Assembly: GCA_031264015.1 (NCBI GenBank)
Contig: JAISET010000118.1
Location: 1-34,751, forward strand
Length of the DNA: 34,751 bases
DNA from: Deltaproteobacteria bacterium
GTDB lineage: Bacteria; Desulfobacterota; Desulfarculia; Adiutricales; Adiutricaceae
Reading direction: 5' to 3'
The notes under the pieces were generated by a model. It had not been told where the DNA came from. It made no database searches and saw only the letters and a list, made by a program, of their open reading frames with translations. Position numbers and translations under genes: made by a program. Shown in pieces: positions 1,108-3,265 of this stretch. How positions within the stretch are numbered: position 1 is the stretch's first letter; every line of letters begins with the position of its first letter.

Positions 1108-1137
1108 TTGACAAGCAGGGTGTCAATGTCTTATACT
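1108..1137 (+). promoter_or_regulatory. Sigma-70 promoter of the Rpn nuclease gene
   Basis: A perfect -35 TTGACA (1108-1113), an 18-bp spacer and TATACT as -10 (1132-1137). The expected transcription start is near 1144, upstream of the ATG at 1180 but only about 15 nt before the alternative TTG at 1159. The copy-2 promoter at 2918 resembles it in spacer length and spacer sequence. Confidence 0.75.
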
Positions 1138-1179: not shown

Positions 1180-1956
1180 ATGACGAGGAAAAAAAAAGTT
1201 GACGAAACACCTGTCGGCTCGTCTGGCGGCACATTGGATCTGGCTCCCGATGGCAACCGAGAACACAAAAGCTCTATTTTTGTAGAATTTTTAGATAAGC
1301 CAATTCTATTGCGTGATACTTATAATAATTTATCCGGCACAAATTTTGAAGAGTTGCCCTCAATTCTAAGGCCAAACAATATTCTTGTTTCGGGTGTGCA
1401 AAATGACATCGCCTTTGTAATTGGTAATTCTTTGGTTGTGTTCGTAGAACACCAGTCGACTCCTAGCCAGAATTTACCCTATCGAATGCTACAGTATTCT
1501 ACTCATTTTTACGAGAGACTTTATGATTCGAGAGCAAAGTATTACACGGAATTACTTGAATTTCCTCGTCCCAGCTTTATAGTCTTCTACAATGGTATCA
1601 GTGAATACGATGATATAAAGATACTTCGATTGTCCGATGCTTTTAAAACCGTTCAGGACCAGGATTCTGCATCAGTTAACCCTTTGCTGCTCGGCTCCTT
1701 GGAATTAAAGGTTGTCGTTTATAACATCAATTTTGGTCGCAATTTGCATCTATTTCCTGAAGGATCGGCGGTGTATCAATATTCTAAGTTGATCCAATGG
1801 ATTCGCGACTATCAGACGAAGGAAATGGATCTTTTAAAAGCCATTCAGACTGCTGTGGCAAGATATTTAGGAAATCCTGTTAAGGATGAGATGTGGACTT
1901 TTTTAGATAATCATCGTTTGGATGTAGAAAAATGGTTCTTGCCGAATTTAAATTAG
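1180..1956 (+). CDS. Rpn-family PD-(D/E)XK nuclease, frame-broken at its tail
   Basis: Rpn (recombination-promoting nuclease/putative transposase) proteins are DNA endonucleases of the PD-(D/E)XK fold, linked to RecA-independent recombination and, in E. coli, to antiphage toxicity. The 258-residue frame shows Asp76 in VQNDIAFV and Glu90-x-Gln92 in VFVEHQST, followed by NLPYRMLQYSTHFYERLYD, which matches the Rpn core. I chose ATG 1180 over TTG 1159 because AAAGAGG (1162-1168) lies 11 nt upstream and because the promoter would start transcription at about 1144. The gene is clearly AT-rich against a GC-rich chromosome, so it was probably acquired by transfer. It ends early (WFLPNLN, stop at 1954) because the frame changes at the GAAAAATGG run (about 1927-1935). 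With one more A it would read on into the tail protein at 1932. It is either a broken gene or a genuine two-ORF arrangement. Confidence 0.8.
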   Translation: MTRKKKVDETPVGSSGGTLDLAPDGNREHKSSIFVEFLDKPILLRDTYNNLSGTNFEELPSILRPNNILVSGVQNDIAFVIGNSLVVFVEHQSTPSQNLPYRMLQYSTHFYERLYDSRAKYYTELLEFPRPSFIVFYNGISEYDDIKILRLSDAFKTVQDQDSASVNPLLLGSLELKVVVYNINFGRNLHLFPEGSAVYQYSKLIQWIRDYQTKEMDLLKAIQTAVARYLGNPVKDEMWTFLDNHRLDVEKWFLPNLN

Positions 1957-2141
1957 AGGATTTCAAAGCGGCGAACATAGAAGACGAAAGGGTTCGAGTC
2001 GCAAAAAGAATGATTGCCTTCGACCATCCTGATCATGAGATCATTCGTGCAAGCACTTTACCCTTGGAAAAAATTAAGAGTCTGAGGGTGCGATATCTTG
2101 CCGACAAGAAGAAAGGCGTCAAGCCGGAGGAATATATTTAG
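1932..2141 (+). CDS. Small C-terminal tail protein of Rpn, separate frame (tail copy 1)
   Basis: 69 residues in a different frame from the nuclease, overlapping its last 25 bp. It begins MVLAEFKLEDFKAANIEDE and contains a helical segment AKRMIAFDHPDHEIIRASTL followed by PLEKIKSLR. This is the usual Rpn C-terminal region: an 'EV..M.L.EF' joint and then a short unit like a helix-turn-helix. Inserting one A before ATG 1932 fuses it to the nuclease (NHRLDVEK then MVLAEF), so ancestrally it was one protein. The ATG lacks a strong Shine-Dalgarno sequence; expression, if any, would rely on coupling to the overlapping nuclease frame. E. coli rpn genes encode a short C-terminal protein from an internal start that antagonises the full-length nuclease. 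By analogy this could be a separated antitoxin; that role is inferred. Confidence 0.55.
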   Translation: MVLAEFKLEDFKAANIEDERVRVAKRMIAFDHPDHEIIRASTLPLEKIKSLRVRYLADKKKGVKPEEYI

Positions 2142-2218
2142 GGTTCGCCGCGGGGATGTCCGACAATATCCTGATTGCCGCCGTTTTTCATGAGCGCTTT
2201 TTTCGGATCGGTGGTTTC
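1932..2218 (+). repeat. Duplicated Rpn-tail segment, copy 1
   Basis: About 287 bp closely related to 3056-3345. The similarity covers the 69-codon tail frame and continues roughly 75 bp past the stop, through the phrases cgccgcggggatgtccgac and gccgccgttttt to gagcgcttttttcgga. By hand count 43 of 69 codon positions give the same residue, and many of the rest are D/E, K/R or I/V exchanges. Confidence 0.85.
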
Positions 2219-2917
2219 GGGGAGCCTCGTCCTGCGTCCCGTCTTCCAATGCCGGCGCGTCCCCGCTATTGTCATTTTGCGCCGCGTCCCTTCAAAAACT
2301 TGTCCCGGCTCCTCGTCGGACGTTTGTGGTTTATTGCCGTGCGCCGTTGCCACAAGACTGTCAGAGGCCTAAAGTTCCGTAACATATTGCCCAAGCTGTC
2401 TAAAGTATCCGGGCCGGTCCCAGCCTGTCTTGCGTCCGGCCATTTTGCGGCTTGTTTCCTTTTCAGTCGCCGGTAATATTAGGCGTCATGTCCGAGGCTT
2501 TGACCGCCTGCCTCGAAAGTTCGCCAATTTTGAGCGGTCCCGGGCCGATCAGCCCGCCTCGGTCCCATTGCGGCGGCAACCTTCATCTTCACCATCATAA
2601 CCACCATCGCCATCATCCTTCGCCATCCGCCATCATCATCATCATCATCAGCCATCTGACTGCGACGCCGGACTTTTTTTTTGAAACCCCTTTCTTATGG
2701 TCATAAATAATTTCGATCGTTGTTCCCTGGTCGGTTTCCCGGATTTTTCCCGACGGCTGCGGCTCCGGCCGGAGGCGGGACTTGAAGGCGGCTTGGTTTG
2801 CCGGGCCGGGGCGACGGCTTCCCGCCCGGCCGGCCGGTCATTCCATGACGGGCAGGACCGTCCCGGCCGGGGGAGACAGGGCCGGGATAAAAAGGGCGGC
2901 GGCACGGCAGTTTTTAC
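2142..2917. other. Spacer between the two Rpn-tail copies, no gene seen
   Basis: The first ~75 bp belong to the duplicated segment. The rest has no convincing coding region. At about 2578-2652 lies a CAT/CAC/ATC-rich tract (CATCATCATC...), an imperfect trinucleotide microsatellite that produces a His-rich or Ile-rich shadow ORF (2452-2706). That shadow has no ribosome-binding site and no recognisable domain. Confidence 0.5.
2578..2652. repeat. Imperfect CAT/ATC trinucleotide microsatellite
   Basis: The plus strand runs through catcttcaccatcataacc and related triplets and ends in a nearly pure ATC/CAT array around 2630-2650. It is intergenic, and its function is unknown. Confidence 0.7.
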
Positions 2918-2947
2918 TTGACACGGCGTGTGATGATGTAATATGTA
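2918..2947 (+). promoter_or_regulatory. Candidate promoter of the second Rpn-tail copy
   Basis: A perfect TTGACA (2918-2923), then an 18-bp spacer to TATGTA (2942-2947), or a 15-bp spacer to TAATAT (2939-2944). The spacer (cggcgtgtgatgatgtaa) aligns with that of the promoter at 1108 (agcagggtgtcaatgtct). This suggests that promoter and tail were duplicated together. The -10 is weaker than in copy 1. Confidence 0.5.
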
Positions 2948-3055
2948 ACGAATCAAAAAGTTATTTACTCTTCTGTCTGAAGGTTGGATAAGGGCAGATA
3001 AGAGGGAAACTTATGGGATGATTAAGTTTTCGAGCATCGTCCGGAGGAGGGCGAC

Positions 3056-3265
3056 ATGACCATCGCCGATTTTAATTTCGACGATTTCAGAGCGGCGAAC
3101 ATAGACGACGCAAAGGTTCTAACCGCAAAAAGAATGATTTCCTTCGGCTATCCTGATGACGAGATCGTTCGTCTAACCTCTTTACCCTTGGAAAGAGTCA
3201 AGAGTCTGAGGGTGTGATATCTTGACGACAAGGAGAAAGGCGTCAAGCCGGGGGAATATATTTAG
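3056..3265 (+). pseudogene. Stand-alone Rpn tail, nonsense at codon 54 (tail copy 2)
   Basis: Second copy of the 69-codon Rpn C-terminal protein (begins MTIADFNFDDFRAANIDD), without the nuclease domain. It has its own strong ribosome-binding site (GGAGGAGGG, 3042-3050) and a promoter about 110 bp upstream, so it could be translated on its own. Codon 54 is TGA (3215-3217), where copy 1 has CGA (Arg). After it the frame stays open to the same TAG (3263-3265), which restores exactly 69 codons. A 53-residue product ending at KSLRV would keep the whole putative helical unit. Upstream, HRPEEGD-M aligns in frame with HRLDVEK of copy 1, a trace of the lost nuclease end. It is a decayed remnant or a solitary truncated tail protein. 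Confidence 0.7.

Follow-up and report, generated by a model that had tools for sequence, protein, structure and literature searches.

In the window, by which is meant the whole 34,751-nt stretch that was analyzed (contig JAISET010000118.1 of a Deltaproteobacteria bacterium, assembly GCA_031264015.1), a one-base change has probably, and recently, disrupted an rpn gene that belongs with the RpnL/RpnS gene-within-a-gene toxin-antitoxin systems. The break is best explained if one base was lost between the RpnS ATG and the internal ribosome-binding site that precedes it. The upstream promoter would then drive production of a nuclease that terminates at the border with the tail and, for want of this dimerising part, would be weak or inactive; RpnS itself would still be made, less efficiently, by reinitiation or from the original internal start, and the locus would be on its way to decay, as are other rpn copies in the clade. 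A decay mutation, which the original prediction had offered as the simple alternative, thus fits best, given the unique layout, the weakened ribosome-binding site and the lack of purifying selection on the tails. What counts against the break is that open frames and intact catalytic residues are also expected of a working split pair.

Two overlapping frames at the nuclease/tail border

The frames predicted to overlap by 25 bp in different registers were verified, their coordinates and the A5 run at the border bearing the claim out: the nuclease frame extends from ATG 1180 to the stop at 1956 (258 codons, with TTG 1159 as an alternative start), and the tail frame from ATG 1932 to the stop at 2141 (69 codons), one base out of register at GAAAAATGG. 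The tail is in the -1 frame relative to the nuclease, and the run in question is A1928–A1932. The nuclease frame ends in ...DVEK-WFLPNLN, its last 7 residues (WFLPNLN) being out-of-frame, and the tail frame is translated into a protein of 69 aa, MVLAEFKLEDF...PEEYI. One added A gives a normal Rpn protein, as predicted: the joined reading aligns at the border to intact relatives (EVENM..EF/EW), which also places the break exactly where nuclease and tail meet. Apart from this one base, both frames are fully open.

An independent indication that one base is missing comes from the shared CATCGT-to-ATG spacer, which is 14 nt long in the window tail (tail A) vs 15 nt in two solo tail copies, B and C, of the same genome. 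The missing base most likely sits between the internal ribosome-binding site and ATG 1932, since the window GGATG stands 7 nt from the start codon vs 8 nt for the site in most relatives. The overlap of the two frames does not look designed. A longer run, A9 at 1189–1197, lies in frame two codons after the nuclease ATG and is a likelier place for slippage than the border A5; the A5 run is therefore not unusual in this gene. The features of the locus are collected in Table 1.

Table 1. Features of the rpn locus and its solo tail copy, in window coordinates.
Feature	Position	Strand	Basis
Sigma-70-like promoter of the rpn gene (predicted)	1108..1137	+	TTGACA, 18 nt, TATACT; 11/12 consensus matches
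Rpn (YhgA-like, PD-(D/E)XK) nuclease frame	1180..1956	+	PF04754; 35–40% identity to intact relatives; D76/E90/Q92
Proposed catalytic motif D76...E90-x-Q92	1405..1455	+	invariant in alignment A1
Degraded internal RpnS ribosome-binding site GGATG (predicted)	1920..1924	+	7 nt before ATG, 8 in most relatives (GGAGG or GAGG)
A5 run where the frame changes	1928..1932	+	frame comparison; 14 vs 15 nt in solo copies
Tail A, RpnS-like C-terminal frame, 69 aa, open	1932..2141	+	ancestral Met start; three-helix model
Downstream repeat region X	2142..2950	+	also on C265 and C268, partly after tail B; pieces 80–92% identical
Ribosome-binding site GGAGG of solo tail B (predicted)	3043..3047	+	8 nt before tail B ATG
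Tail B, solo RpnS-like copy	3056..3265	+	in-frame TGA 3215–3217, 53 aa before TGA

The nuclease

The nuclease frame matches PF04754 just above the cut-off (21.3 bits vs 21) and falls below that of TIGR01784 (20.1 vs 52.1); the relatives in alignment A1 score better on both. It retains D76, E90 and Q92, which are invariant in that alignment (seven relatives), along with 27 of the 37 positions that are invariant in the other six nucleases, some of the changes being non-conservative. A structure model of low confidence (pLDDT 61) gave no significant fold match, and neither a sequence search of solved structures nor PADLOC returned a match. When 45 tail residues are removed from RpnD, its activity drops strongly but is not abolished (PMC5350276), and by that analogy the truncated window nuclease is probably crippled.

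The predicted promoter falls within a 51-bp stretch that is 82% identical to the DNA upstream of an intact rpn gene on contig C265. The rpn gene is AT-rich (39% GC) in a window of 66% GC, and it is flanked by genes of 73–75% GC: mutS2, assigned by Pfam, and a neighbor that, from its sequence, we take to be hisA-like. Such a composition is as expected of a horizontally acquired gene.

An ancestral Met at a proposed internal start with a weakened ribosome-binding site

The Met that heads the tail, pointed out in the original prediction, is present and ancestral, not a coincidence created by the break. A Met occupies the position of ATG 1932 in the C265 rpn gene, in three genes of one Fibrimonadales genome (L013–L015) and in genomes G004 and G009, and it lies one residue off in G012. 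EVEN-M is typical of the tail border in most intact relatives; because these have Met at the same place, the tail ATG is an old feature. In six of the seven intact or nearly intact relatives examined, GGAGG or GAGG stands exactly 8 nt before this Met; the exception is L019 of G009, which lacks the site and has a Shine-Dalgarno duplex energy of -2.8 kcal/mol. Relatives with the site range from -9.5 to -13.1 kcal/mol vs -4.1 in the window, so that most intact relatives have a stronger internal ribosome-binding site. In a control, resampling of synonymous codons yielded GAGG upstream of the Met in 32–62% of draws per gene, so the conservation of the site is only modest evidence for an internal start.

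E. coli makes RpnS, a small C-terminal inhibitor, from an internal start (Zhong et al., 2023; PMC10327210). The proposed link to that start gains support from the conserved Met, from the Shine-Dalgarno sequence embedded at 8 nt in most relatives and from a predicted three-helix tail that resembles solved RpnA-S. The window RpnS frame is open and perhaps weakly translated from the ancestral start.

Tail A and its solo copies

Tail A is modeled as a long first helix followed by two shorter ones (pLDDT 81). Solved RpnA-S (7th0) superposes on the model with a TM-score of 0.82 on the RpnA-S length but an E-value of 6.8, which is support, not proof, for tail A as an RpnS. Of the two solo copies, tail B lies in the window and tail C at C265:11553–11762 on the minus strand, and both keep the 8-nt ribosome-binding site spacer.

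No purifying selection was seen among tails A, B and C. Their differences are spread about evenly over codon positions, with dN/dS of 0.8–2.0 (small numbers), and tail DNA is 81–86% identical vs 84–90% for the flanks; the tails, being no better conserved than what surrounds them, thus show no visible constraint. Selection on them may be relaxed, or they may be diversifying, as Rpn tails are known to do. Downstream, region X holds a 106-codon frame (window 2156–2476; L010 on C265; L011 on C268) that is open in all three copies with dN/dS of 0.42–0.55 and could be either a small gene or nothing more than repeat DNA. Short CATCAT/CACCAT simple repeats occur at window 2590–2650.

State of rpn genes in the clade

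Homologues with the same two-frame layout were sought and found neither in the 63 class genomes and 395 phylum genomes searched nor in a scan of GTDB contigs, where four relatives are all in one frame or run off the contig. Viral contigs yielded neither a protein relative nor DNA matching the junction, and plasmids no relative; among phages, three unannotated gut records have nuclease matches at 33–36% identity.

Broken rpn genes are common nearby, as copies in G004 and G012 illustrate. In the congener G004, the rpn gene (L018, G004:C309) carries a TAG exactly where the ExQ motif has its catalytic Glu codon (1708–1713), the frame otherwise being open. In G012, the second copy of a tandem (L044, G012:C178, about 1321–2040) has a nuclease with 8 stops, many indels and AT-biased changes. 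Its tail is open, the first 55 codons showing four differences from the intact G012 copy, all at third positions, and conservation is also good over about 110 bp ahead of it. The pairing of a decayed nuclease with a conserved tail points to selection on the solo tail or to gene conversion, the latter likely playing a part given the very high synonymous identity. In G017, a second rpn copy is rearranged, again with an open tail.

Alternative explanations

The break might instead have been kept, the nuclease and the RpnS tail now forming an overlapping two-gene toxin-antitoxin pair that would work by translational coupling or internal initiation. Both frames are open, the nuclease motif is intact, the tail begins at the ancestral RpnS Met, and solo tails exist elsewhere, as rpnS genes in E. 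coli (PMC10327210) and as the open G012 tail beside a decayed nuclease. A working pair is nevertheless unlikely, since the layout is unique to the window locus, its ribosome-binding site is weaker than in most relatives, the tail copies lack purifying selection, and tail-less RpnD is strongly reduced; the "two genes" arrangement of the original prediction finds no support here, as no relative shares it. We hold it to be quite unlikely that the rpn toxin and its internal antitoxin were separated into overlapping frames yet work as a pair, with copy C (perhaps B) as a spare inhibitor. If true, a one-base change would have turned a gene-within-a-gene into a conventional two-gene toxin-antitoxin operon. 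On the main reading, the locus looks like an ordinary broken gene of a known kind, not a new mechanism. Improbable, too, is an error of sequencing, assembly or strain mixing in the A run that would conceal a real gene in one frame: the joined reading is a normal Rpn protein and the source genome is a fragmented draft (282 contigs), but A5 is short for homopolymer error with common short-read methods, the longer A9 run in the same gene stays in frame, and so do seven large window genes with Pfam matches.

Recombination could have placed a solo unit, made up of a tail and region X, behind the window nuclease, the frame break dating from then. Such a swap, which we consider very unlikely, would suit three observations: tail A resembles tails B and C more closely than it does the tail of the intact rpn gene on C265; DNA similarity to tail B sets in at about the start of the tail (window 1941); and in E. 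coli an rpn N-terminal domain is reported to have fused with an rpnS region. In B and C, however, the leaders also look like an in-frame rpn border (FEHRxExGDM) with 15-nt spacing, and rpn genes of the window type are therefore the probable source of the solo copies; similarity further upstream of the tails is weak, being reached by 16 and 60 of 500 shuffles, and this leaves room for a swap. It is highly improbable that programmed -1 frameshifting or slippage on the A run yields a full-length fusion. Although the tail lies in the -1 frame and AAAA allows a single tRNA-Lys to re-pair, A GAA AAA does not fit the X XXY YYZ pattern of a canonical slippery heptamer, five A's make a short run for RNA polymerase to slip on, RNA folding around the run is no better than in shuffles (z-scores -0.4 and +0.3), and intact relatives, being in one frame, need no slip. 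On these grounds (no slippery heptamer, no unusual downstream structure, a layout not found in relatives) programmed -1 frameshifting was rejected, and the -1 slip of the original prediction goes unsupported.

Relation to known systems

The closest known system is the RpnL/RpnS toxin-antitoxin (COG5464, PF04754; E. coli RpnA–RpnE; PMC10327210). As in that system, a PD-(D/E)XK-type nuclease domain is followed by a variable small tail, predicted to be helical and headed by the Met of a putative internal start; unlike in it, nuclease and tail are not in one frame in the window and the internal ribosome-binding site is degraded. E. coli also has solo rpnS genes downstream of rpn, namely ypaA (rpnE-S) and rpnC-S (PMC10327210). 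Tails B and C are similarly RpnS-like, each with its own predicted ribosome-binding site and located ~1 kb downstream of an rpn gene. They depart from the E. coli solo genes in that tail C differs from the tail of the rpn gene it adjoins, tail B has an in-frame TGA, and neither matches DUF4351, a candidate family for the solo tails that had no match in six genomes.

As a probable recent break, the locus illustrates a point at which an rpn gene can be interrupted such that the nuclease is parted from its tail and the inhibitor frame survives from its own internal start. The surviving tail frame and the solo rpnS copies found around it suggest that the inhibitor part can persist longer than the nuclease in the window lineage; what was described in E. 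coli would then hold for a distant group as well. Two further Rpn-like genes (PF12784) are present in the same genome, at G000:C9:33301–33480 and G000:C258:3822–4532, one of them cut by a contig end.
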